Of a stretch of 64,000 bases of DNA, positions 1 to 12,373 are shown one piece after another. How positions within the stretch are numbered: the stretch's first letter is position 1; every line of letters starts with the position of its first letter. Made by a program: the position numbers and the translations under genes. A model generated the notes under the pieces. That model saw nothing but the letters and a program-made list of their open reading frames with translations, made no database searches and was not told the DNA's origin. This DNA comes from Halarcobacter anaerophilus (GTDB lineage Bacteria; Campylobacterota; Campylobacteria; Campylobacterales; Arcobacteraceae). The stretch lies in the NCBI RefSeq assembly GCF_006459125.1, contig NZ_CP041070.1, positions 2,170,001-2,234,000 of the forward strand, written 5' to 3'.

Positions 1-740
1 TTTTCAACGATGACACGACATATTATGCCGCAAGTCTAAGTTTTTTTACAATTTTCTCTCTTTTACCTATTATCGCACTTTTGATTTCAATAATTTCAAG
101 TTTGGAAATAGTTCAACAATATCATGATATTTTTGTTGAGTATATTTTTGATATCTTAAATCCTACTCATTCAAAAGCTTTTATCCAAACTTTCACCGAC
201 TATATCTCAAACTCAAATAAACTGGGATTTTTGGGTCTTTTATATATGCTTTTCGTATTTATTATGTTTTTTAAAGATTATGAATATATAGTAAATAAAA
301 TACACAATGCAAAAAGAAAACCTCTGCTTCAATCTTTCTTTTTCTATCTTGTATTTTTAATTACTCTGCCTCTTATGTTAGCAGCACTAAACATTGCGTT
401 AAGTTTTTATGAAAACAGTTTTTTTAACTGGTTTATAACCTTCATGTTTGCATGGTTTATATTTTTCGGTCTGTTTAAATTAAGCGTTAATAAGCCGATC
501 TCTTTTAAAGCTGCCGCAATTTCATCTTTATTTACTCTAATAGTTTTGTCTATTACAAAAAATCTGTTTGTCTATTATGTAATTTATAATAAAACTTATA
601 CGACAATTTACGGTTCTTTGGCTATTTTATTATTTTCATTTTTTTGGATTTATATCTCTTGGGTGATTTATCTTTACGGAATAAAGATGTGTCATAGATT
701 GAATATTCAGGAAAGAATAAAAAACAGAGCAAAAGATTAA
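1..740 (+). CDS. YihY/virulence factor BrkB family membrane protein, 5' truncated by the window
   Basis: The open frame is continuous from the window edge (frame beginning at base 3) to a TAA at 738-740, so the true start lies outside. The internal ATG at 81 is not the start: upstream codons read DDTTYYAASLSFF, which matches the N-terminal part of the YihY/UPF0761 family. The visible part has about five hydrophobic helices and ends in a short basic tail, as expected for this inner-membrane family. The family was once called ribonuclease BN, but its molecular role is not settled. It converges with the next gene, and their stop codons overlap by 4 nt. Confidence 0.85.
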   Translation, partial: FNDDTTYYAASLSFFTIFSLLPIIALLISIISSLEIVQQYHDIFVEYIFDILNPTHSKAFIQTFTDYISNSNKLGFLGLLYMLFVFIMFFKDYEYIVNKIHNAKRKPLLQSFFFYLVFLITLPLMLAALNIALSFYENSFFNWFITFMFAWFIFFGLFKLSVNKPISFKAAAISSLFTLIVLSITKNLFVYYVIYNKTYTTIYGSLAILLFSFFWIYISWVIYLYGIKMCHRLNIQERIKNRAKD

Positions 741-1726
741 TCTTTACTCTGCACTACTTTTAAAACATTATCTAACTGCTTTTTTAAATCATTTAATTTT
801 TTTGTTGTTTTTATAAGATTGTCGGAAGACTCTATTGCAATATCTTCACTTCTGTCAATTCCTTTCATAATATCCGATTTATTCTCCAAATCATCAATTA
901 TATCTTCAAACTCATCTGTTAAATCCTGAAGTTTTTCAGAAGCCAGTCTTGATTGTTCTAAAGCCACTTGGGAATAATCCATTGCAGAATTTACTTTATT
1001 GATAAAAAAGTTAATATTATCTGCCATCTCCACAAACTCTTTTTCGGATTCAACTTTTATAGGTTCGATTTTATTTATATCTGTTGCTCCCATTTTTTTA
1101 TATTTTTCTAAAAACTCGTTTGCATGAGTCTCTATTTGTTTTAATTGAATCAAAGAGTAAAGAGAAAAAATAAAAAGAAAAGAGAAAGCCAAATATTGAA
1201 AGTTTTTAATAAAAGCTGTCTTATGTTCAATATATTCCGTATATAAAGTTACAATTTCATCGACCTCATCAAGAAGTTTATTATTTGTTTGATATATATA
1301 TTTAATAAGAGAATTAAGCTCTTGAATATCATTACTTAAAAGTGCTTTTTTAAACTCATTCGTATTTTTTTCAAAAGTTGTCCAAAGAACAGTAACTTTT
1401 GCAATCTGATTTACAATTTTTTCTGTAGGAGCTTTTGATATTTTCAAAAGTTCATTTCCTTCTCCTAAAGTATTCAAACCAAATTTAAATTCATCAATCG
1501 CATTATCTATTTCGGTAAAATTATTCGTTTTTGTTTGATAAAGATAAAATATATTTTTTGTAATTCTTTGAGTAAGCATTCTTTGCTTCCCTGCAATATT
1601 TACTATCGTCGCATCTTTTATATTTTTTTGATTTAGATAAATAGTAATTGCTATTACAAAAAATATCGAACCTAGAAGCAAAGCTCCTAAAATTTTAATT
1701 TTTTGACTAACACCGATTTTTTTCAT
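737..1726 (-). CDS. Orphan PilJ/NarX-like nitrate-sensor domain membrane protein without kinase or MCP output domain
   Basis: This 329-residue protein has TM1 at about 12-31, a helical periplasmic domain at about 32-173, TM2 at about 175-195, and a charged, probably coiled-coil cytoplasmic tail to the end. Residues 43-54 (NIAGKQRMLTQR) resemble the P-box of NarX/NarQ and the type IV pili methyl-accepting N-terminal (PilJ) domain; R49 aligns with the ligand-contacting arginine of NarX. No H-box, ATPase or MCP signalling tip is visible, so the sensor has no recognised output. It begins 1 nt after the stop of the Crp/Fnr gene upstream and is probably co-transcribed with it. A nitrate/nitrite sensing role is inferred from the P-box and from the nap/hao context. 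Confidence 0.75.
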   Translation of the reverse strand: MKKIGVSQKIKILGALLLGSIFFVIAITIYLNQKNIKDATIVNIAGKQRMLTQRITKNIFYLYQTKTNNFTEIDNAIDEFKFGLNTLGEGNELLKISKAPTEKIVNQIAKVTVLWTTFEKNTNEFKKALLSNDIQELNSLIKYIYQTNNKLLDEVDEIVTLYTEYIEHKTAFIKNFQYLAFSFLFIFSLYSLIQLKQIETHANEFLEKYKKMGATDINKIEPIKVESEKEFVEMADNINFFINKVNSAMDYSQVALEQSRLASEKLQDLTDEFEDIIDDLENKSDIMKGIDRSEDIAIESSDNLIKTTKKLNDLKKQLDNVLKVVQSKD

Positions 1727-1727
1727 T

Positions 1728-2390
1728 TTATATTCCTAAATAAATACTTCTTAATTCATCTTCTTTTAAAATTATAACTTCACCTTTTTCTATTGAAATA
1801 GTCTCATTTCTGACTAATCTTTTTAAAACTCTTGAAAGAGTTTCAGGTTGAATATGAAGCAGTAAAGCCACTTCATTTCTTTTTAGTTGGTTAAACATAG
1901 ATAAATCATTTGTTAACATAAAAGCAACTTTTGAAGTTGCATCAAAAACCAACTCCCTGTTTACAATACATTGAAGCTGTTGATTTTTATAAATAAGTTC
2001 GTTTATAAATTTTAAAACTAGCTCGTTTTGAGATAAAAACTCTTTTTTAAACCTTTTAAAATCTATAGATAGAAGAAGACTATCTCTTAAAAATTCACTA
2101 TTTGAAAAACAGTTAATTTTATTATCTTTTAAATTTGACAACTCTGAAATCATTGAGTTTGGATATACATAATATAAAAATATCTCATTGTCATATTTAT
2201 CGATTTTATAAACTTTTAAAAGTCCATCAACCAAAAACAACAATCTATCTGTAGACTCAGTCTCATAAAATAGCACCGTATCGGTGTTATAAGAGGAGAG
2301 TTCAGACATTGATGCAATTAATTCCAGCTCTTTATCTTCTAAATGAGAAAAGAGACTTATTGATTTTATAGCTTCTTTTGTTTTAATCAT
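1728..2390 (-). CDS. Crp/Fnr family transcriptional regulator
   Basis: The 220-residue protein has an N-terminal cyclic-nucleotide-binding-type beta-roll (about 10-125), a dimerisation helix, and a C-terminal winged helix-turn-helix (about 150-220). The recognition helix contains E-T-L-S-R, matching the E-x-x-S-R pattern with which Fnr reads TTGA half sites. There are only two cysteines (in NCFSN and QCIVN) and no N-terminal cysteine cluster, so an oxygen-sensing Fnr-type Fe-S cluster is unlikely. It is more like the DNR/NnrR/NssR group, which responds to NO or nitrogen oxides. It is divergent from the YgbA_NO gene, with a matching palindrome between them, and is followed by the PilJ-like sensor. 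Likely regulator of the nap/hao locus (inference). Confidence 0.88.
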   Translation of the reverse strand: MIKTKEAIKSISLFSHLEDKELELIASMSELSSYNTDTVLFYETESTDRLLFLVDGLLKVYKIDKYDNEIFLYYVYPNSMISELSNLKDNKINCFSNSEFLRDSLLLSIDFKRFKKEFLSQNELVLKFINELIYKNQQLQCIVNRELVFDATSKVAFMLTNDLSMFNQLKRNEVALLLHIQPETLSRVLKRLVRNETISIEKGEVIILKEDELRSIYLGI

Positions 2391-2424
2391 AAATCTATTA
2401 TATAAAAAAAAACTGAAATATTAA

Positions 2425-2438
2425 TTGACTCAAATCAA
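2425..2438. promoter_or_regulatory. Fnr-like operator between the crp/fnr gene and ygbA
   Basis: The sequence is TTGACTCAAATCAA, a TTGAY-N4-RTCAA palindrome. Exactly 22 nt downstream on the plus strand is TAAAAT (2461-2466), a good -10 for the YgbA_NO gene. This spacing puts the site near -41.5, the class II activator position. On the other strand its centre is only about 41 nt from the regulator's start codon, so autorepression is possible. Confidence 0.75.
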
Positions 2439-2485
2439 TTTAATATTTTTTTTATTTTTGTAAAATGGAAATAAAAAGATAAGAA

Positions 2486-2824
2486 ATGACAAAAGAGAAA
2501 TTTAAAAGTGAAATTCAGATACTAAAAAAATTTTCTGAACTATATTGCAAAAACAAACATTCAAATCAAAACTCTTTTAAATCTGTAATTATATATAAAG
2601 ATGAAAAAATCCATATAAATCTAAATTTATGCGAAGAGTGTGAAGAGATTATCAATTACAGCATAAAAAGATTACAAGAGTGCCCTCATGAGGAAAAACC
2701 AAGATGCAGAAAATGTCCAAATCCCTGTTATGAAAAAGTTTATTGGAAAAATTTATCAAAAATCATGAGGTATAGTGCTCTTAAATCAGGTCTTACAAAA
2801 ATAAAAAAATTTTTTTCCGAATAA
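2486..2824 (+). CDS. YgbA_NO family protein (nitrous oxide-stimulated promoter family)
   Basis: This 112-residue cytoplasmic protein has the family's cysteine pattern: LCEECEE at about 49-55, a CPHEEKPRCRKCPNPCY block near the middle, and MRYSALKSGL towards the C-terminus. The spacing matches the small YgbA_NO family, whose members are found in Fnr/NsrR-type NO- or nitrate-responsive regulons. The cysteines suggest metal or Fe-S binding; the biochemical role is unknown. It has its own Fnr-like box and -10 upstream and precedes moaA, so it belongs to the nitrogen-oxide-responsive set here. Confidence 0.8.
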   Translation: MTKEKFKSEIQILKKFSELYCKNKHSNQNSFKSVIIYKDEKIHINLNLCEECEEIINYSIKRLQECPHEEKPRCRKCPNPCYEKVYWKNLSKIMRYSALKSGLTKIKKFFSE

Positions 2825-2834
2825 ATTCAAAATA

Positions 2835-2848
2835 TTGATTTAAGTCAA
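2835..2848 (+). promoter_or_regulatory. Fnr-like operator and promoter of moaA
   Basis: The sequence is TTGATTTAAGTCAA, a TTGAY-N4-RTCAA palindrome. A -10-like TAAGAT lies at 2871-2876, 22 nt after the site, the same spacing as at ygbA and napA. The moaA start codon is at 2895. Confidence 0.75.
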
Positions 2849-2894
2849 GCAATAAAGTTCTTTTTTGGTGTAAGATTTTAAATAGGAGATTATT

Positions 2895-3866
2895 ATGTTA
2901 GTAGATAAATTTGACAGAAAAATTGATTATTTAAGGGTGTCCGTAACACAAAGATGTAATTTCAGATGCCAATACTGTATGCCTGAAAAACCTTTTGAAT
3001 GGACGCCTAAAGAGGATTTACTTTCATATGAACAGATGTTTGATTTTATCAAAGTAGCAATTGATAAGGGAATAAAAAAAATAAGAATAACAGGTGGAGA
3101 ACCTTTAGTTAGAGATGATTTACATAAATTGATTTCTATGATTTCATCTTATAAACCTGATATCGATTTAGCCATTACTACAAACGCTTATCTTCTAAAA
3201 GAGCAAATTTTTAAACTAAAAGAGGCTGGATTAAAAAGAGTAAATATCTCTCTTGACTCTTTAGAAAAAGAGACTTTTTGGTATTTAAGTAAAAGAGATG
3301 CACTTCAAAAAGTATTAGACTCAATTGAAGCTGCTTTAAAAGCAGAAGTAAAAGTCAAAATAAACAGCGTAATTTTAAAAAATATAAATGAAAATGAGAT
3401 ATTAAATCTCTATAATTTTGCAAAATCGAAAAATATACAAATCCGTTTTATAGAGTATATGGAAAATAAAAATGCCTATATAGATTTAAAAACAGTTCCA
3501 AGTTCCCAAATAATAGAAACCATAAAAAGCAAATATTGTCTTGAAGAGACCAATCTTCCCAAAAGCTCCGCGGCAAAACTATATAAAGATGAAGATGGAT
3601 ATGTTTTTGGAATTATTGAACCTTATGACGACTCATTTTGCAAAGCCTGCAACAGAATAAGACTAAGTGCAAACGGAGATTTAATTCCTTGTTTATATTA
3701 TGAAGATTCCTTAAATATAAAAAGCAGCCTGCATAACAAACAAAAAACGGAAAATATTTTAAAACAGGTAATAGATAATCGACCTGAAAAAAACAAATGG
3801 TCACATAATAAAACAGCAGAAAATACGGAAATATCAAGTAGAGCTTTTTATTTTACGGGAGGATAA
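2895..3866 (+). CDS. moaA: GTP 3',8-cyclase MoaA
   Basis: This radical SAM enzyme carries out the first step of molybdenum cofactor synthesis, converting GTP to 3',8-cyclo-7,8-dihydro-GTP. The N-terminal Fe-S motif CxxxCxxC is at C21, C25 and C28. The second-cluster ligands are C249, C252 and C266 in the motif CKACNRIRLS...C. TGGEP (about 66-70) is the usual radical SAM glycine motif, and the protein ends in the Gly-Gly pair typical of MoaA. Length (323) is normal. The gene lies immediately upstream of the napA operon, which needs Moco, and has its own Fnr-like box. Co-regulation with nitrate reductase is therefore likely. Confidence 0.96.
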   Translation: MLVDKFDRKIDYLRVSVTQRCNFRCQYCMPEKPFEWTPKEDLLSYEQMFDFIKVAIDKGIKKIRITGGEPLVRDDLHKLISMISSYKPDIDLAITTNAYLLKEQIFKLKEAGLKRVNISLDSLEKETFWYLSKRDALQKVLDSIEAALKAEVKVKINSVILKNINENEILNLYNFAKSKNIQIRFIEYMENKNAYIDLKTVPSSQIIETIKSKYCLEETNLPKSSAAKLYKDEDGYVFGIIEPYDDSFCKACNRIRLSANGDLIPCLYYEDSLNIKSSLHNKQKTENILKQVIDNRPEKNKWSHNKTAENTEISSRAFYFTGG

Positions 3867-3966
3867 AAAACTTTTTATAAGACTCCTTCTCTTCTGCTTT
3901 ATTAAACTTTATAAAATCTCACTTAATTTTTTTTATTATATTAAAAACAAATCTTTTTTTAATTAT

Positions 3967-3980
3967 TTGACTTAAGTCAA
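3967..3980 (+). promoter_or_regulatory. Fnr-like operator and promoter of the nap operon
   Basis: TTGACTTAAGTCAA is a perfect 14-bp palindrome. TAAACT (4003-4008) follows after exactly 22 nt and can serve as a -10, giving a start near 4015 and a leader of about 35 nt before napA. It lies in the 182-nt gap after moaA, which is otherwise AT-rich with no recognisable terminator. Confidence 0.8.
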
Positions 3981-4048
3981 GGTATTAATTTTTATTTGGT
4001 GTTAAACTTGTCTTGTTAGAAAAGAAAAATTTTAGAGGGAGGAAGAAG

Positions 4049-6859
4049 ATGTCACTTTCAAGAAGAGATTTTCTAAAAAGCTCTGCAGCAGCTTCAGCAG
4101 CTGCTGCAGTGGGCATGAATGTACCAAGCAGTTTAAAAGCTGCAGCTTCTACGGCAGAAGCCGGTTGGCGATGGGATAAAGCTGCATGTAGATTCTGCGG
4201 TACAGGTTGCGGAATTATGATGGCAACAAAAAACGGAAAAATTGTTGCGGTAAAAGGAGACCCTGCAGCTCCTGTAAACAGAGGGTTAAACTGTATTAAA
4301 GGGTATTTTAATGCAAAAATTATGTATGGAGCAGATAGATTAAGAACTCCTCTTTTAAGAGTAAATGCAAAAGGAGAATTCGATAAAAACGGTAAATTTG
4401 CTCCTGTGTCATGGAAAAGAGCTTTTGATGAAATGGAAAAACATATCAAAATAGCTTTAAAAGAATCAGGTCCCGAAGGAGTCGGAGTATTTGCATCAGG
4501 GCAATATACTATTATGGAAGGTTATGCAGCCCAAAAAATGATGAAAGCCGGATTTAGATCTAATGCAATTGATCCAAATGCAAGACACTGTATGGCTTCA
4601 GCTGTCGTCGGATTTTATCAAACTTTCGGAATCGATGAACCAAGTGGATGTTATGATGATATCGAATTAACCGATACGGTTGTAACATGGGGAGCTAATA
4701 TGGCGGAAATGCACCCTATTTTATGGTCAAGAGTTACAGATAGAAAATTAACAGATCCAAAAAGAGTAAAAGTCGTAAATATCTCGACATATAGACATAG
4801 ATGTTCTGACTTGGCAGATATGGAGATTATTTTTACACCTAATACAGATTTAGCTTTATGGAACTATATAGCACATGAAATCGTATATAATCATCCCGAA
4901 GCTATTGACTGGGATTTTGTAAAAAAACATATAATTTTTGCTGCAAGTCCCGTAAATATGGGTTATGGAATGAGAAGAGCAGGAGAAAAATCTCTTGTAG
5001 AAGGGAAATATACTAAAAAAGAGATGGAAACTATCTCTAAAGAGATGAAAAAAATCGTATCACAAACTGAGGCACCTGCTCTTGCTCCATATGGATATAA
5101 AGAGGGTGAAGTGATGGAGAATAAACCAGCTGGATTAAAACACTGGGAAATCTCATTTGAAGAGTATAAAAAATTCCTTGAACCTTATACCTTAGATTAT
5201 GTTGCAAAAATAGCAAAAGGTAATCCCGATGAAGATATAAATGAATTTAAGAAAAAACTTAAAACATTGGCTTCATTATATGTTGAAAAAGGAAGAAGAG
5301 TGGTGTCTTTTTGGACAATGGGAATGAATCAACATACAAGAGGAACTTGGGTTAATACTTTGTCATATAATGTTCACTTCTTATTAAACAAACAAGCAAA
5401 ACCAGGTTCTGGAGCATTCTCTTTAACAGGACAACCAAGTGCATGTGGAACAGCAAGAGAAGTGGGAACATTTTGTCATAGACTACCTGCTGATATGATG
5501 GTTGCAAATCCCGCTCACAGAAAAATTGCGGAAAAAAGATGGAAAATTCCTCAAGGAACACTAAATCCTGTAGGAAATCAACATATTATGAAAATCCACA
5601 GAGATATAGAAGACGGCATTATCAAATTTGCTTGGGTAAATGTATGTAACCCTTATCAAGATAGCGCAAGTGCAACTCACTGGATAAAAGCTGCAAGACA
5701 AATGGATAACTTTATCGTTTGTTCAGACGGGTATCCCGGAATCTCTGCAAAAGTATCCGATTTGATACTTCCAAGTGCAATGATTTATGAAAAATGGGGA
5801 GCATACGGAAATGCCGAAAGAAGAACCCAACACTGGAGACAACAAGTACTTCCTGTAGGTGACGCAATGTCGGATACCTGGCAATGGGTAGAATTGGCAA
5901 AAAGATTTACGGTAAAAGATTTATGGAAAGACTATACCTTAAGAAACGGTAAAAAACTTCCTAATGTAATCTCTAAAGCAAAAGAGATGGGATATGATGA
6001 AAATACAACTATGTATGATATTCTATTTGCAAACGAAGAGGCAAAAAGTTACAAACTAGATCACAATGATCCAATACAAAAAGGTTATGATAATTCAGAA
6101 GGTTTCGGTGACAGCAGAAATGTAGAGGGAAGTGACGGAGAAGTTTGGAAAGGTTACGGATTTTTTATCCAAAAATATCTATTTGAAGAGTATGCTTCAT
6201 TCGGTAGAGGTCATGCCCACGATTTGGCAGACTTTGATACATATCACAGAGTAAGAGGACTTAAATGGCCCGTAGTTGACGGTAAAGAGACTCAATGGCG
6301 ATTTAATACAAAATATGATCCTTATGCAAAAAAATACGGTAAAGAGACAGGAGATACAGATTTTGCTTTTTACGGAAAACTAGCAAAAGCACTTCCAAGC
6401 GGAGATTTATTAGGAATTAAAAACAAAACTAAAAAATCTTTAAAAAACAAAGCAAAAATATTTGCAAGACCCTATATGGATCCTCCGGAAGTTCCAAATG
6501 AAGAGTATCCTATTTGGTTATGCACAGGAAGAGTTTTGGAACACTGGCACAGTGGAACAATGACAATGAGAGTTCCTGAATTATATAGAGCAGTTCCTGA
6601 AGCTTTATGTTATATGCATCCCGAAGATGCAAAAAAATACGGCTTAAAACAAGGTGAATTATGCTGGGTAGAATCAAGACGTGGAAAAGTTAAAGCTAGA
6701 GTTGAAACAAGAGGAAGAAACAGACCTTCAAAAGGTTTAGTTTTCGTACCTTGGTTTGACGAAAAAGTTTTCATCAACAAAGTTTGTTTGGACGCAACTT
6801 GTCCTCAATCAAAACAGACTGATTATAAAAAATGTGCAGTAAAAGTTTATAAAGCATAA
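4049..6859 (+). CDS. napA: Periplasmic nitrate reductase catalytic subunit NapA
   Basis: NapA reduces nitrate to nitrite in the periplasm using Mo-bis-MGD and one [4Fe-4S] cluster. I chose ATG 4049 (936 aa) over a TTG at 4013 because a strong GAGGGAGGAAG ribosome site precedes it and the Tat motif SRRDFLK then begins at residue 4. The [4Fe-4S] ligands are C47, C50, C54 and C82, and the Mo-ligating cysteine is C181 in ARHCMAS. Length fits the long Campylobacterota NapA form. It is first in an operon with napG, napH, napB, napF, an unknown gene, napL, napD and a PAS gene. There is no napC, as is usual in this phylum, where NapGH feeds electrons from menaquinol. Confidence 0.97.
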
Positions 6860-6879
6860 AAACATTAAGGAGTACTGCT

Positions 6880-7710
6880 TTGAACAGTAACAATCCTTTA
6901 AAAGAGAAAAAGATGAAGAACGAAGAGATAAGTGACAGAAGAAAATTTTTTCTAACTATGGCAAGAGCGGCAGGACTTGCTGCCCTTGGAGGTCTTATGT
7001 GGAGTGCATATGTTGATGAAGTTACGGCTTCACAACTGACACTTAGACCTCCTGGTGCTTTAGATGAAAAAGATTTTCTAAAAACATGTATCAAATGCGG
7101 AATGTGCGTAGAAGCATGTCCTTATGATACTCTCAAATTGGCAAAACCGGGAGACAACAAACCTTTGGGAACTCCTTTTTTTGAACCAAGAGAGACTCCA
7201 TGTTATATGTGTACAGATATACCTTGTGTTCCTGTTTGTCCGACCGATGCCCTAAATTTAGACAAAGTCAGCACAAACGGAAAACTTGATATCAATAAAG
7301 CACAAATGGGAGTCGCTGTTGTAGATACAAAAAACTGTATTGCTTTTTGGGGAATTCAATGCGATGCCTGCTATAGAGCCTGTCCCTTATTAGATGTTGC
7401 TATAAAATTAGAATATACAAAAAATGAAAGAACAGGAAAACATGCTTTTTTAAAACCGATTGTCGATAGTGATTTTTGTACAGGCTGCGGTCTTTGCGAA
7501 AGAGCTTGCGTAACGGAAAAAGCATCAATTTTTGTTCTGCCTAGAGAAGTGGCTTTAGGACGTGCCGGAGATTATTATATCAAAGGCTGGGATAAAAACG
7601 ATGAAAAAAGATTGGAAAATGCAACAAGCAAAACAACCAAAACAGAACTTAGCAAACAAAAAGCTGTAGATTCGTTAAATGATATGGAAGGACTTTTAGA
7701 TGATGAATAA
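6880..7710 (+). CDS. napG: Ferredoxin-type protein NapG
   Basis: NapG is a periplasm-facing protein with four [4Fe-4S] clusters that passes electrons from the NapH quinol-side module towards NapB/NapA. A TTG start at 6880 has a clean AAGGAG at 6867-6872 with 7-nt spacing. The in-frame ATG at 6913 has only a weak purine stretch, so TTG is preferred. The Tat-like signal DRRKFF is at about 19-24. Cysteine sets are CIKCGMCVEAC (70-80), CYMCTDIPCVPVC (108-120), CDACYRAC, and CTGCGLCERAC near 200. It overlaps napH by 11 nt, indicating translational coupling. Confidence 0.95.
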   Translation: MNSNNPLKEKKMKNEEISDRRKFFLTMARAAGLAALGGLMWSAYVDEVTASQLTLRPPGALDEKDFLKTCIKCGMCVEACPYDTLKLAKPGDNKPLGTPFFEPRETPCYMCTDIPCVPVCPTDALNLDKVSTNGKLDINKAQMGVAVVDTKNCIAFWGIQCDACYRACPLLDVAIKLEYTKNERTGKHAFLKPIVDSDFCTGCGLCERACVTEKASIFVLPREVALGRAGDYYIKGWDKNDEKRLENATSKTTKTELSKQKAVDSLNDMEGLLDDE

Positions 7711-8515
7711 TAAATTTTTAATTCTTAGAAGATTTACCCAAATATCAATAATGTTTTTATATTTTGCGGCAAATGCCTGGGGATGGAACTTTTTAATTGG
7801 AAATTTAAGCTCATCAAAAATCTTAAATCTTATTCCAATGAGTGACCCTTATGCAGTATTACAAATGTTTGTATCAGGAGCAATTATAGCTTCAGATGTT
7901 TTCGTAGGTGCTTTAATTGTTGTTTTATTCTACTCTATAATCGGAGGAAGAGCATTTTGCTCTTGGGTTTGTCCTGTTAATATGATAACCGATTTAGCAA
8001 ATTATACAAGAAGAAAATTCGGATTAAACAGAATTCAAAAAAAACAACCTGCAACTAGAAATATGAGATACTGGATAATTGCTTTAAGTTTAATTATCTC
8101 TTTTATTTTTGCAGTACCGGCTTTTGAATTTATCTCTCCTATTTCAATGATACACAGAGGTATTGTTTTTGGATTAGGATTCGGCTGGGCAGCAATTTTA
8201 ATGATATTTTTGTTTGATCTTTTTGTTTTAAAAAACGGTTGGTGCGGACATATCTGTCCTTTAGGCGGATTTTATTCCCTAATAGGAAGATTTAGTCTTA
8301 TAAAAGTAGAGCACCAAGAAGAAAAATGTACGCTTTGTATGAAATGCAAAGAGGTTTGTCCAGAGAGTCAAGTACTTTTTATGGTAGGAAAAGAATCGGG
8401 ACAAGTTTTATCAGCAGAGTGTACGAATTGTGGAAGATGTATTGAAGTTTGTGAAGATGATGCAATGAATTTTTCAATAAGAGATCTAATTGCAAATAAA
8501 AAGAAGGAGAAATGA
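7700..8515 (+). CDS. napH: Membrane ferredoxin-type quinol dehydrogenase NapH
   Basis: This 271-residue inner-membrane protein has about four or five hydrophobic helices, two CX3CP motifs (CSWVCP and CGHICP), and a C-terminal pair of [4Fe-4S] motifs, CTLCMKCKEVC and CTNCGRCIEVC. With NapG it forms the menaquinol-oxidising branch that replaces NapC. Two adjacent ATG codons occur at 7700 and 7703; both overlap the end of napG, and an AAGGA precedes them. The gene is followed after 1 nt by the napB start. Confidence 0.95.
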   Translation: MMNNKFLILRRFTQISIMFLYFAANAWGWNFLIGNLSSSKILNLIPMSDPYAVLQMFVSGAIIASDVFVGALIVVLFYSIIGGRAFCSWVCPVNMITDLANYTRRKFGLNRIQKKQPATRNMRYWIIALSLIISFIFAVPAFEFISPISMIHRGIVFGLGFGWAAILMIFLFDLFVLKNGWCGHICPLGGFYSLIGRFSLIKVEHQEEKCTLCMKCKEVCPESQVLFMVGKESGQVLSAECTNCGRCIEVCEDDAMNFSIRDLIANKKKEK

Positions 8516-8516
8516 T

Positions 8517-9149
8517 ATGAAACTTGTTACTAAACTTGGGCTTGGTTTAGCAGTGACTTCATTTATAGTATTTATAGGTTGCAGTAAAGCTCAACCGACA
8601 TATTCAGAAGAGTCATTAGGGTTAAGAAAAGATAACCTTTATAATGAAGATAAAGTTGTGCCTGAAGAGACACATTATAGTAAAGTAGCACCTAGTACGG
8701 GAGGAAAAACATTTAAAAGAGCTTTTCAAGACGCTCCGCCGATGATTCCACACGATGTTGAGGGTATGTTACCTATTACTATAAACAATAACCAATGCGT
8801 AAGCTGTCATTCGCCTGAAGTAGCACCGTCGTTAGGGGCTTTGCCATATCCTAACTCACATATGATTAATTTCAGACCTGATACTTCATTGGCAAAAGAT
8901 GGTAAAATTACAAAAAACGGTAAAGAGATTGACAACACTTCTAGTGAAAAACTTGCGAATGTTTCAATTAAACATTTAAATAAGTTATCATCTGCTAGAT
9001 TTAACTGTACTCAATGTCATGCACCGCAAAGCAAAGGAGAATTGGTAGGAAATACATTCCAACCGGATTTTACCGATAAAGAGGGAAATAAAAAATCAAG
9101 CTGGAGCGGAAGCAAACTAACCGAAGGGTTAAATACTTTAATGGAATAA
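8517..9149 (+). CDS. napB: Diheme cytochrome c NapB, possible lipoprotein
   Basis: NapB is the small electron-transfer subunit that reduces NapA. ATG 8517 has AAGGAG upstream and fits better than the earlier in-frame codon at 8490, which would put charged residues before the signal. The two c-heme motifs are CVSCH (94-98) and CTQCH (164-168). The N-terminal signal ends VFIGC with cysteine at residue 22. This is close to a lipobox, although the -3 residue is Phe rather than Leu/Val, so NapB may be membrane-anchored rather than freely soluble. Confidence 0.95.
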   Translation: MKLVTKLGLGLAVTSFIVFIGCSKAQPTYSEESLGLRKDNLYNEDKVVPEETHYSKVAPSTGGKTFKRAFQDAPPMIPHDVEGMLPITINNNQCVSCHSPEVAPSLGALPYPNSHMINFRPDTSLAKDGKITKNGKEIDNTSSEKLANVSIKHLNKLSSARFNCTQCHAPQSKGELVGNTFQPDFTDKEGNKKSSWSGSKLTEGLNTLME

Positions 9150-9151
9150 AG

Positions 9152-9634
9152 ATGGAAAGAAGAGAGCTTTTTAGCTCTCTTGCCAACTCTTTTTCAAAAA
9201 AAGAGGGTCAAGAGAGTATTATTCGACCACCGTACTACAAAGATTTAGATTCTTTTTACAAAGAGTGTCTTGATTGCGATAATCAATGTGCCACTTTTTG
9301 CGAAGAGAATATAATTGTTATAAAAGAGGATAAAACTCCTATCTTAGATTTCAGTCTTGGAGGCTGCACTTATTGTGATGCTTGTGCAAATAATTGTCCT
9401 AAAGAGGTATTATCCCTTGAAAATAAAAAAAGAGTTAATGCCAAATTTGAGATAGATATACTAAAATGTATGAGTTGGCATCAAACAATGTGTTTTTCCT
9501 GTAAAGACCCTTGTTTAGATGATGCTATAAAATTTTTAGGAGTTTTTCGTCCCTCAATAGATGAAAATCTTTGTACAAATTGTGGATTTTGTGTTAACAT
9601 TTGTCCAAGCAATGCAATAAAAATAGTTGATTAA
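9152..9634 (+). CDS. napF: Ferredoxin-type protein NapF
   Basis: This 160-residue, cysteine-rich, signal-less cytoplasmic protein has CLDCDNQC...C, CTYCDACANNC, CMSWHQTMCFSCKDPC and CTNCGFCVNIC sets, consistent with several [4Fe-4S] clusters. NapF is thought to help mature or reduce NapA in the cytoplasm before Tat export. It starts 2 nt after napB. The third set lacks the regular CxxCxxCxxxC spacing, so the exact cluster number is uncertain. Confidence 0.9.
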   Translation: MERRELFSSLANSFSKKEGQESIIRPPYYKDLDSFYKECLDCDNQCATFCEENIIVIKEDKTPILDFSLGGCTYCDACANNCPKEVLSLENKKRVNAKFEIDILKCMSWHQTMCFSCKDPCLDDAIKFLGVFRPSIDENLCTNCGFCVNICPSNAIKIVD

Positions 9635-9644
9635 GGAGAAGAAA

Positions 9645-9923
9645 ATGCCGGTAAAATTCGTATCTCACGTAGATGAAGACAAAGATCAAAATTGGTTTAT
9701 AAAACTAACCGATACCTTAAGTAATAACAGTGTTATTTGCAAAGATTTAGATGAGTACAAAATAAAACTTGAAGAGTATTCAAGTGAATATGGTTTTGAT
9801 ATAGAAGTGGTATGGACGAAATCAAAGTCACTTTCACCTAAAAATTATCAAGATTTAAACAATCAAATGGCTCTTTTACAAGAAGAGTATAAAAATGAAA
9901 TAGATGAAATAAATCAAAAATAA
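9645..9923 (+). CDS. Small protein of unknown function inside the nap operon
   Basis: ATG 9645 (92 aa) has AAGGAG immediately upstream and is preferred over an in-frame codon at 9627 inside napF. I do not recognise the family. The protein is acidic, has no signal peptide, no membrane segment and only one cysteine (VICKD), and ends in a probable helix rich in Glu, Asn and Lys. It sits between napF and napL with tight spacing, so it is almost certainly co-transcribed. A role as an assembly or accessory factor of NapA is only an inference from position. Confidence 0.8.
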   Translation: MPVKFVSHVDEDKDQNWFIKLTDTLSNNSVICKDLDEYKIKLEEYSSEYGFDIEVVWTKSKSLSPKNYQDLNNQMALLQEEYKNEIDEINQK

Positions 9924-9933
9924 GGAGATTAAA

Positions 9934-10875
9934 ATGTATAAAATTTTACTCTTAATCTTTTTTTCTCTAAATCTTTTTGCTACACAAATAATGCAGCCTC
10001 AAGAAGTTTTTAAAGCCTCAGGCAGTGTTCAAGATATAAAATTTAAAAACAATAAAATTTATACGGCAACAGATAACGGAAGTATAGAAATTTTTGATTT
10101 AAATACAAAAAATAAAATCAACACTATAAAAATCCCCGATATAAAAGATTTTATGGGTGATTCTATTGCCTCAAAAATCTACTCTATTGATCTGCTTGAA
10201 AATAAAATTTTAATTGTATCTCAAGGAATGAAAGGTTATAGAAATATCTATATTTATGAAAATAACTCCTTGAAAAAAATTATAGGAATAGACAAAAAGT
10301 ATTATATTCAAAAAGCATATTTCGTAAATAAAGATGAAATAATCTTTGCCCTTCTTAGCAATCAAATAGGTTTATATAATATAAAAACAAAAACCTTAGA
10401 GTATTTAGTTCAAGTTAGTGCTTCATCCTTTTCCGATTTTGTAATAAGTGAAAATAAAAAAAGTATCGCTTCAACAGATGAGAGCGGAATAGTACGAGTA
10501 TTAGATATTCAAAAAGGAAGTATAAAAAAAGAGTTAAAAGCCTTAAATCTTGATAAAGTATATCAGCTTGACTTTAAAAAAGGAGTAATTTTAACAGCAG
10601 GACAAGATAGAAAAGCCGTTTTATACGATAAATTAAACACTTACAGTCTTGATTTTGATTTTTTACTTTACAGCTGTGCTTTAGATAAAACTGCAAAATT
10701 CGCAGCAATAGCCTTTAATGAACAAAATGATGTATTAATTTTTAATACAAAAACAAAAAAATATCTTTATGAATTAAAAGGTCAAGATGCAACTATAACA
10801 AAAATATTATTTATAAATAAAAATGAAGTCTTAGTAAGCAGTGATAGTCAGAAAATAAACTATTTTAGATTTTAA
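9934..10875 (+). CDS. napL: NapL, periplasmic beta-propeller-like protein
   Basis: This 313-residue protein has a Sec signal (MYKILLLIFFSLNLFA) and repeated blade-like stretches such as IYTATDNGSIEIFDLNT, SIASTDESGIVRVLDI and ILTAGQDRKAVLYD, typical of WD40/PQQ-type propellers. NapL is a Campylobacterota-specific nap operon member; its role in nitrate reductase maturation or activity is poorly defined. An AAGGAG precedes the start. No cofactor-binding residues are visible. Confidence 0.88.
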   Translation: MYKILLLIFFSLNLFATQIMQPQEVFKASGSVQDIKFKNNKIYTATDNGSIEIFDLNTKNKINTIKIPDIKDFMGDSIASKIYSIDLLENKILIVSQGMKGYRNIYIYENNSLKKIIGIDKKYYIQKAYFVNKDEIIFALLSNQIGLYNIKTKTLEYLVQVSASSFSDFVISENKKSIASTDESGIVRVLDIQKGSIKKELKALNLDKVYQLDFKKGVILTAGQDRKAVLYDKLNTYSLDFDFLLYSCALDKTAKFAAIAFNEQNDVLIFNTKTKKYLYELKGQDATITKILFINKNEVLVSSDSQKINYFRF

Positions 10876-10888
10876 AAGGAGAGATAAA

Positions 10889-11272
10889 ATGAATATTTCA
10901 AGTATAGTAGTACAAACTACTCCAAAATATTTGGATCAGGTTGTAGAAGCTTTAGTAGCTTGCAAAGAGTGTGATTACTATATACATGACGATAAAGGAA
11001 GAGTAGTTGTCACAATAGAAGGAAACGGCGTAGATGAAGAACTTGCAAAATTAAGAGTAATAGAAGCAATTCCCCATGTAATCTCGGCAGATATGCAAAT
11101 GGCATATAGTGAAGAGGAGTTAGAAGAGCATATGGAAGTTTTGGAAAATGCCGATTTAGTTCCTAAAATGTTGAATGATGAAAATGTAGATCCTAAAAAA
11201 ATTCTTTATAGAGGAGACTTGAAAAAGAAAGATTTAGAAGGCTTTGCAAAAGATTTTAGTAAGGTTGATTAG
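10889..11272 (+). CDS. napD: NapA-specific chaperone NapD, with long C-terminal extension
   Basis: NapD binds the Tat signal of NapA and holds back export until cofactors are loaded. The N-terminal 85 or so residues (MNISSIVVQTTPKYLDQV..., with VVVTIEG and VISADMQMAY) give the ferredoxin-like NapD fold. The total of 127 residues exceeds the roughly 80-90 of enterobacterial NapD; the extra C-terminal 40 residues are charged and probably helical. The stop codon is followed directly by the ATG of the PAS gene. Confidence 0.92.
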   Translation: MNISSIVVQTTPKYLDQVVEALVACKECDYYIHDDKGRVVVTIEGNGVDEELAKLRVIEAIPHVISADMQMAYSEEELEEHMEVLENADLVPKMLNDENVDPKKILYRGDLKKKDLEGFAKDFSKVD

Positions 11273-11716
11273 ATGGAATATAATGAGAGTGAATTTCTAA
11301 TAGAAACAATAGTTCCAAAAAATGAACTTATTATTTCAAGAACAGATTTAAAAGGTGTTATTACCTACGTAAATGACACCTTTGCTCAAATTAGCGGTTA
11401 TGAAGAAGAGGAATTAATAGGAAATCCTCATAATATAGTAAGACATCCGGATATGCCAAAAAAAATCTTTAGGCAGATGTGGGAAAAACTCCAAAACAAG
11501 CAAAAATGGGAAGGAGTTATAAAAAACTTAAGAAAAGATCATGGATTTTATTGGGTCCATGCAATAATAAGCGGTGTTTATAAAGACAATCACTTAGTAG
11601 AATACAAATCAATAAGAACTCCAATAACTTACGAAACAAAACTAAAATATCAAAAACTCTATGATCAATATAGAAATATTGATAAAGAGAATATTCGAAG
11701 AGTAGTCTATTCATAA
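11273..11716 (+). CDS. Single PAS-domain protein, CetB/Aer-like redox sensor
   Basis: The 147-residue cytoplasmic protein is one PAS domain. Diagnostic segments are TDLKGVITYVND, FAQISGY, and the Aer-type NIVRHPDMP followed by FRQMWEKL. This resembles the FAD-binding PAS domain of Aer and the PAS-only partner CetB of the bipartite CetA/CetB energy-taxis system of Campylobacter. There is no output domain. The ATG abuts the napD stop, so it is the last gene of the nap operon and precedes a clear terminator. Likely role: passing redox or electron-flow state to a separate MCP-type partner (inference). Confidence 0.85.
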   Translation: MEYNESEFLIETIVPKNELIISRTDLKGVITYVNDTFAQISGYEEEELIGNPHNIVRHPDMPKKIFRQMWEKLQNKQKWEGVIKNLRKDHGFYWVHAIISGVYKDNHLVEYKSIRTPITYETKLKYQKLYDQYRNIDKENIRRVVYS

Positions 11717-11732
11717 AATAGACTGCTTTTTT
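11701..11732 (+). terminator. Rho-independent terminator of the nap operon
   Basis: An 11-bp stem (11701-11711 with 11717-11727, one G-T pair) with a 5-nt loop is followed by a T-rich run. It overlaps the last codons of the PAS gene and ends nap transcription before the haoC promoter. Confidence 0.85.
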
Positions 11733-11752
11733 CTTTTTTTTAATCAACTCTC

Positions 11753-11766
11753 TTGACTTAGGTCAA
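11753..11766 (+). promoter_or_regulatory. Fnr-like operator and promoter of haoC-haoA
   Basis: TTGACTTAGGTCAA is a TTGAY-N4-RTCAA palindrome. TATAAT, a perfect -10, lies at 11790-11795, 23 nt after the box. This is the fourth copy of the same arrangement in the locus. Confidence 0.78.
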
Positions 11767-11827
11767 TAAAAATGAACATTCATTTAGGTTATAATGAAAA
11801 CGGTGAATCTAACGGTAAAGGAGTACG

Positions 11828-12373
11828 ATGGAAAAGATTAAAAAATCCAAATCCAAAGTCATTGTTCCGTTATCACTTGTTTTAGTCGGGCTTATTGTAG
11901 GTCTGATTATTTCGTTTGGTAGCTCAGTCGGGGTAAAACATACAAGCGATAAAAACTACTGTGCAAGCTGTCACACCATGCAACCCGTTGTTGATTCATA
12001 TAAAATGGATATACATGGAGGAGCAGGAGAGCACGGCATAGAAGTAAAATGTGTTTATTGTCATTTACCGCAAGACTCAATGGCTAATTACTTAATCACT
12101 AAGGTTAAAACAGGAATGCATGATTTATATGTAGAAAACTTTGAAGATACTTCAAAAATAGATTGGCATAAGATGAGAGAACACAGAGAATCTTTCACTT
12201 ATGATAGTGCCTGCCTTAATTGTCACACAAATCTTAAAAATGCAACAGAATCAAATCTAAAAGCATTTAATGCACACAGAAAGTATTTTGCAAAAACTAC
12301 AGATAAAACTTGTGTTGGTTGTCACGAGAATGTAGGACATAAAGATTTAGGTTTATATTTGCCTAAAAATTAA
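11828..12373 (+). CDS. haoC: NapC/NrfH-family tetraheme cytochrome c, HaoC-type quinol dehydrogenase
   Basis: This 181-residue protein has a single N-terminal membrane anchor (about 12-30) and four CxxCH motifs at 45-49, 75-79, 129-133 and 162-166, the architecture of NrfH/NapC quinol dehydrogenases. It directly precedes an octaheme HAO-family gene, not a pentaheme NrfA with CxxCK, so it is the HaoC of the epsilon-type HaoCA pair. It should take electrons from menaquinol and pass them to HaoA. Its promoter carries a consensus -10 and an Fnr-like box. Confidence 0.9.
   Translation: MEKIKKSKSKVIVPLSLVLVGLIVGLIISFGSSVGVKHTSDKNYCASCHTMQPVVDSYKMDIHGGAGEHGIEVKCVYCHLPQDSMANYLITKVKTGMHDLYVENFEDTSKIDWHKMREHRESFTYDSACLNCHTNLKNATESNLKAFNAHRKYFAKTTDKTCVGCHENVGHKDLGLYLPKN

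Follow-up and report, generated by a model that had tools for sequence, protein, structure and literature searches.

We analysed a stretch of 64,000 nucleotides (nt) from Halarcobacter anaerophilus (contig NZ_CP041070.1, positions 2,170,001 to 2,234,000; hereafter the window), which is part of a complete genome of 3.02 Mb; its closest relatives among named records are mostly Arcobacter-like. Four palindromic boxes of the form TTGAY-N4-RTCAA precede ygbA, moaA, napA and haoC in the window, and a Crp/Fnr family regulator, P0001, is encoded beside them, directly followed by the gene for a PilJ-domain membrane protein, P0002. With a probability of about 0.6, we read the boxes as class II sites of an Nss-type activator, P0001, and the neighbouring receptor as the nitrate sensor that would switch this activator. 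The evidence is comparative and was drawn from sequences and structure models: the geometry of the promoters, the conservation of the napA box and the linkage of the regulator and receptor genes. The elements concerned are the following.

1728..2390, minus strand: P0001, predicted Nss-type Crp/Fnr transcription regulator, 220 amino acids (aa); Pfam cNMP_binding and HTH_Crp_2
737..1726, minus strand: P0002, PilJ-domain membrane protein, 329 aa, kinase-less, putative nitrate receptor; Pfam PilJ only; N-box VNIAGKQRMLTQ
2425..2438: box TTGACTCAAATCAA before ygbA (plus strand), also facing the regulator gene (minus strand)
2461..2466, plus strand: TAAAAT, -10-like hexamer for ygbA, 22 nt from the box at 2425
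2397..2402, minus strand: TATAAT, -10-like hexamer for the regulator gene, 22 nt from the box at 2425 on the opposite strand
2835..2848, plus strand: box TTGATTTAAGTCAA before moaA; -10-like hexamer TAAGAT at 2871, 22 nt
3967..3980, plus strand: box TTGACTTAAGTCAA before napA, the conserved core site; -10-like hexamer TAAACT at 4003, 22 nt
11753..11766, plus strand: box TTGACTTAGGTCAA before haoC; -10-like hexamer TATAAT at 11790, 23 nt

A preliminary description of this DNA had reported the four boxes and the hexamers TAAAAT, TAAGAT, TAAACT and TATAAT behind them. A pattern search of the window found all four boxes as exact matches at 2425, 2835, 3967 and 11753, and the hexamers were confirmed at 22, 22, 22 and 23 nt. 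In the four intergenic stretches that contain the boxes, TAnnnT begins at 17 of the 434 positions, and the chance of finding it at 22 or 23 nt from four of four boxes is about 3.5e-5. With 14 bp of box and 22 nt up to the -10 hexamer, the centre of such a site falls near -41.5, which is where class II activators bind. Across the genome, 34 TTGAY-N4-RTCAA palindromes were counted versus 9 for the reversed control pattern. The probability that at least four of 34 randomly placed sites fall into this particular 9.3 kb is about 5e-6, for a stretch that was picked for its sites.

Within the family, napA was found in 96 of 104 genomes. We compared 94 upstream regions of at least 60 nt; one further region (L163, 29 nt) was dropped from the original 95. 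Copies with truncated 5' ends were left out, as were those of G075 and G095 despite their intact or nearly intact 5' ends. A TTGA-N6-TCAA box within 300 nt upstream, with TAnnnT at 22-23 nt, was present in 90 of the 94 promoters. The hexamer stood at 22 nt in 83 of these and at 23 nt in 7, while any other offset between 10 and 35 nt was occupied in at most 13 of 90. The 90 promoters yield the consensus TTGAC-N4-GTCAA, behind which TG (offsets 19-20; 70 and 74 of 90) and TAnAAT together form an extended -10. The only promoters lacking the box were those of genomes G037-G040, which belong to one genus and possess nap; three of them had no regulator match at E 1e-3, one had a match only at 1e-7, and none had a receptor match at 1e-10. 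The class II activator promoters proposed in the preliminary description are thus strongly supported by geometry and conservation, as predicted sites for a Crp/Fnr protein without an Fe-S cluster, and napA is clearly a core target of these predicted sites. It is very improbable that AT-rich DNA produced these palindromes by chance. TTGA-N6-TCAA is common by itself (207 copies versus 155 for the reversed control), and 27 of the 30 TTGAY-N4-RTCAA sites outside the window lie within open reading frames (ORFs) of at least 80 aa in any frame, some of which may be spurious. Chance would, however, have to account for the promoter geometry in four of four cases, the clustering and the 90 conserved napA promoters.

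The other targets were less uniform. Counting the genome studied here in each case, the ygbA box was found in 7 of 8 cases (6 with the right spacing), the moaA box in 5 of 58, and a box before the regulator gene in 25 of 102 when paralogues are counted; 21 of these have the spacing. For haoC, 5 of 10 homologues with at least 52% identity had the box, and 0 of 9 more distant homologues; one of the ten had just 179 nt of upstream sequence, and two of the boxes lie 177 and 296 nt away. The moaA and haoC boxes therefore appear to be mainly lineage-specific, and outside close relatives the moaA box may possibly have arisen by chance. The expectation that the boxes recur in related genomes was thus upheld for napA and ygbA and not for moaA; at related nap and hao loci, the nap box is conserved and the hao box occurs in half of the close homologues only.

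The window holds four of the seven intergenic TTGAY-N4-RTCAA copies in the genome. The other three precede a DUF2249-like gene (weak match), a dUTPase gene and an NnrS gene. A -10 hexamer follows at 22 nt for the DUF2249-like gene and at 21 nt for the dUTPase gene; for the NnrS gene, there is none at 22-23 nt. Two of these boxes have the form TTGAT-N4-ATCAA, namely G000:C1:691634 (L186), before the DUF2249-like gene, which lies some 10 kb from nosZ, and G000:C1:2582124 (L208), before the NnrS gene. They are possible further members of the regulon or sites of a paralogue. Because of the boxes before the NnrS and DUF2249-like genes, the regulon, which had been described as local, is probably mostly but not wholly so.

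The preliminary description had overlooked that a TATAAT hexamer faces the regulator gene on the other strand, exactly 22 nt from the box at 2425. The box probably serves the regulator gene as well as ygbA. Since the regulator ATG lies 48 nt from the start of this box, the transcript would begin at or beside the start codon and would be leaderless. A distance of 47-48 nt from box to ATG was repeated in eight related loci (L050, L051, L052, L056, L061, L063, L064, L067).

P0001 carries the recognition helix QPETLSR, which contains the ExxSR motif, and has two cysteines (94 and 141), none of them near the N-terminus. Consequently, it lacks an Fnr-type [4Fe-4S] set; an oxygen-sensing Fnr was ruled out because the four cysteine ligands of the cluster are missing. 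This agrees with the preliminary description of a Crp/Fnr protein with ExxSR and without a cluster. The AlphaFold model (predicted local distance difference test, pLDDT, 86.6) matched Crp/Fnr family structures in the PDB with E values down to 3e-14 and whole-chain template modelling (TM) scores of 0.46-0.48. When the family profile was compared to the PDB, the top match was DNR (3dkw), which is remote (48 bits). Orthologue-level matches numbered 90, in 87 of the 104 family genomes, and 86 of the 90 have ETLSR, with A or S replacing E in the other four. By these features, P0001 would be an Nss-type Crp/Fnr protein like NssA of Wolinella. Among 67 aligned Nss sequences, C94 never varies and C141 is present in 90% or more. 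Neither is universal in the family, the exceptions being L127, L128, L131 and L132. Alignment A4 took 66 of 75 sequences, and another set was built from 31 of the 34 regulator references selected, without L065, L088 and L126. L126 (G024:C11) is a divergent second copy of the regulator with PATLSR, without a receptor, beside another gene that we take to be IS21-helper-like; this suggests that the copy is mobile or decaying.

The gene of P0002 lies directly behind the regulator gene on the same strand, which the preliminary description had not noticed, and the two are probably co-transcribed. The sequence VNIAGKQRMLTQ in P0002 exactly matches the N-box pattern [IVL]-[ND]-x-A-G-x-Q-R-M-L-[ST]-Q of the nitrate receptor McpN. 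Martin-Mora et al. derived this pattern from McpN, in which R61 binds nitrate (PMC6381276). Pfam detected PilJ only in P0002, and no methyl-accepting chemotaxis protein (MCP) signalling, histidine kinase or ATPase domain. The periplasmic domain covers about residues 33-172 and the cytoplasmic tail residues 198-329. The AlphaFold model of P0002 has a mean pLDDT of 77.5, and values around 90 or higher are reached in most of the periplasmic domain. Its best matches among the solved structures searched were NarQ (E 6e-5) and the McpN domain (TM score 0.79 by target). Mean conservation among the receptors reaches 0.93 in the N-box; it amounts to 0.68 in the cytoplasmic tail, where some stretches attain 0.73-0.75, and to 0.59 in the remaining periplasmic domain. 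An exact N-box occurs in 53 of 86 family receptors, and the number rises to 81 of 86 if Q may be replaced by E and A by V or S; the five others are a 46-aa fragment, one copy that is degenerate and masked in part, and three receptors of a second class. Receptors of several other groups are longer (363-459 aa: L137, L302, L303, L308), and most of them contain a second N-box or N-box-like motif. On these grounds, we propose P0002 as the putative nitrate receptor of P0001.

The linkage of the two genes is widespread. In 86 of the 90 family regulator matches, the receptor gene lies 3' of the regulator in the same orientation, and 0-29 nt separate the match ends (the printed gaps of 3-32 nt count the stop codon of the regulator), and the adjacency persists where the regulator is far from nap or on a separate contig. 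The four unlinked regulators are those of G024 (beside another gene), G088 and G089 (partial receptor matches on other contigs) and G069 (none adjacent). No family genome had a receptor match without a regulator match. Outside the family, the receptor adjoins the regulator in 80 of the 112 matches listed, three of them counted via the second half of a longer receptor. Among the named loci, the receptor is adjacent in all of the best 80 of 198, from organisms partly shared with the family set. The mirror-tree correlation between regulator and receptor is 0.88 over 62 loci. A fusion of regulator and receptor in G157, suspected from a long open frame, turned out on reading to be two separate ORFs. 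A review describes A. butzleri as lacking Crp/Fnr homologues (PMC6682613), yet the Nss-type gene is present in relatives among the named records, namely Aliarcobacter vitoriensis (L288), Arcobacter caeni (L267) and A. vandammei (L297).

Several observations weigh against the proposed roles of P0001 and P0002. Concerning the regulator, the genome encodes a second Crp/Fnr protein (G000:2974699), a paralogue with 32% identity and an identical ETLSR helix, and six genomes (G041, G042, G053, G086, G087, G103) have only weaker Crp matches and still a TTGA-N6-TCAA box before napA. Concerning the receptor, the cytoplasmic tail of P0002 was modelled at low confidence (pLDDT mostly below 75), and its second transmembrane helix stays below the hydropathy threshold and was placed from the NarQ match. 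In many receptors, the Q of the N-box is replaced by E or the A by V, and binding of nitrate by such variants would be presumptive. Among the listed non-family regulators, 32 of 112 have no adjacent receptor match; when seven of these were read, G271 and G262 had an adjoining N-box receptor and G216 a long ORF without N-box, and no adjoining receptor was seen for G112, G303, G109 and the G221 copy at 687448. In G069 and G112, an Nss-type regulator lies beside napA and no receptor gene is next to it, so that the receptor is not always needed. Finally, the mirror-tree correlation can be explained by shared ancestry alone.

Since the paralogue has the same reading helix, control of the boxes by P0001 alone is likely but not established, and the earlier claim that one regulator drives all four promoters together holds for napA as a core target (90 of 94) and less so for the lineage-specific moaA (5 of 58) and haoC (5 of 10) boxes. 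A third Crp-type protein encoded in the genome has a different helix. We consider it improbable that the paralogue controls some or all of the boxes, as the six genomes with weak Crp matches might suggest. G052, G069 and G070, whose single Crp match is the Nss orthologue, retain the box. Moreover, in genomes with the orthologue, the napA box has C5 in 66 and G10 in 73 of 83 cases as its inner bases, whereas T5 is found in 6 and A10 in 5 of 7 where the orthologue is weak or missing (Fisher P about 0.001, taking genomes as independent of kinship); 5 of 7 box copies in the weak-Crp genomes have the form TTGAT-N4-ATCAA. The box-less genomes G037-G040 also lack relatives of the paralogue and therefore do not discriminate between it and P0001.

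The regulator might also be the sensor itself, either a DNR/HcpR-like sensor of nitric oxide (NO) via haem or a cysteine-based sensor, and the adjoining PilJ protein could be unrelated to it, such as a chemotaxis accessory. DNR is indeed the closest solved relative by profile, the cysteines are conserved to the extent given above, G069 and G112 do without an adjoining receptor, and ygbA belongs to a family linked to nitrogen oxides. We nevertheless regard this as unlikely: the receptor lies 0-29 nt away in 86 of 90 family loci, also where nap is distant or on another contig, neither cysteine occurs in every family member, and regulator and receptor were duplicated as a pair.

This duplication concerns the second class of receptors, which have a TINxQKAFTQEISKNIF-like sequence in place of the N-box (three family and three named loci). 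The second class forms one clade with support 1.0 in both the regulator and the receptor tree, calculated for 32 loci of our choice, which indicates that the pair was duplicated as a unit. We chose 21 second-class loci among the matches listed by their receptor match and second regulator and then read them. For 20 of the 21 receptors listed, nosZ follows directly, at a distance of 107-155 nt between match ends, in the sister family f7 of the same order, which is probably the Sulfurimonas group; at the remaining locus, in G129, nosZ is on another contig. The N-box was found at none of the 21 loci in the sequence read in the 21 genomes, and it was present in 8 of 8 first-class receptors fetched from those genomes. 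Among the 21 second-class regulators, 12 carry PATLSR and 9 carry PETLSR. A strict rule that loss of the helix Glu accompanies loss of the N-box was rejected, since G230 has PATLSR with an intact N-box and nine N-box-less pairs keep PETLSR; the change in the helix does not simply track N-box loss. No exact TTGA-N6-TCAA box precedes the nosZ gene of the genome studied here (681534): there is none between 676473 and 686075, where the places listed are complete to about 1.4 Mb. The nosZ-linked pair (L316, L298, L301 and L341-L362 among others) is a candidate sensor related to nitrous oxide (N2O).

The genes behind the boxes agree in identity with the preliminary description (YgbA_NO, MoaA, NapA, a NapC/NirT-type cytochrome as haoC, and a multihaem cytochrome behind haoC).

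2486..2824, plus strand: YgbA family protein ("nitrous oxide-stimulated promoter" family); PF11756, NF007718 above its cut-off
2895..3866, plus strand: moaA; TIGR02666 above its cut-off
4049..6859, plus strand: napA, periplasmic nitrate reductase, leading the nap cluster; profile matches
6880: napG
7700: ORF, presumably napH from gene order
8517: napB-like gene, below the cut-off of the model
9152: ferredoxin gene
9934: WD40-like gene
10889: napD
11273: PAS protein gene
11828..12373, plus strand: NapC/NirT-family cytochrome, the haoC of the preliminary description; PF03264
12397..13749, plus strand: multihaem cytochrome, Hao-like; PF13447, NF052343 below its cut-off

P0002 resembles McpN, NarX and NarQ in its four-helix periplasmic domain and its N-box/P-box arginine site, and differs from them in lacking an MCP signalling or histidine kinase domain. 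Pseudomonas DNR, a sensor of NO via haem and the remote best profile match mentioned above, has an ExxSR-type helix in the alignment. NssR of Campylobacter jejuni is likewise a Crp/Fnr family protein with a nitrogen-oxide regulon, and its site is of the TTAAC type. According to a review, no NssR sites were identified before C. jejuni nap or nrf (PMC8139620). The Crp/Fnr superfamily proteins NssA, NssB and NssC of Wolinella succinogenes are described, in the excerpts consulted, as controlling nap in response to nitrate, NO and N2O through TTGA-N6-TCAA (PMC6682613, PMC8139620, PMC11539149), NssA being the one that responds to nitrate (PMC6682613). The likeness, compared by description only, thus covers a Crp/Fnr protein and TTGA-N6-TCAA before nap. 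In contrast to our locus, where the receptor gene follows the regulator and boxes also precede ygbA, moaA and haoC, these excerpts name no receptor partner. In Nitrosophilus labii, NIL_RS03760 before nap is NssA-like (44.8%) with TTGA-N6-TCAA sites, the first base of which lies 48-49 nt before the predicted starts, fitting a centre near -41.5; a receptor partner is not mentioned in the portion of that article used (PMC11539149). As far as these excerpts go, Nss regulators, their sites and the control of nap are already known for W. succinogenes and suggested for N. labii. We found no link of PilJ receptors to Crp/Fnr regulators in the literature searched, where an earlier mention in the primary Wolinella work is possible. 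On this evidence, the pairing of receptor and activator appears to be new.

We propose that a P0001 dimer would bind TTGAC-N4-GTCAA centred near -41.5 and bring RNA polymerase to the extended -10. P0001 is probably not its own nitrate sensor. P0002 would be a PilJ/NarQ-like receptor with two transmembrane helices and a helical cytoplasmic tail, without kinase or chemoreceptor output. Periplasmic nitrate may bind at the interface of the receptor dimer and shift the tail, which could switch the Nss activator by direct contact, either by release from the membrane or by allosteric activation. The activator would then turn on nap and ygbA and, in this lineage, also moaA, haoC and the regulator-receptor operon itself. 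Such wiring would be a phosphorylation-free equivalent of NarX-NarL. We tentatively extend this proposal to Nss regulators in general: they may form the output half of a phosphorylation-free two-protein system, in which a kinase-less NarQ-like receptor directly switches a Crp/Fnr activator, the N-box pair reading nitrate and controlling nap, and the N-box-less duplicate before nosZ reading N2O or another denitrification signal.

A review calls for further study of the mechanism by which Nss proteins perceive nitrate, NO and N2O (PMC8139620). If the adjacent receptor is the sensor, this question becomes directly testable. If true, the proposal would represent a new wiring, in which a membrane receptor acts on a Crp/Fnr activator and no phosphorylation is involved. 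With the nosZ-linked variant, a candidate route for sensing N2O would then emerge, which bears on the consumers of this greenhouse gas.

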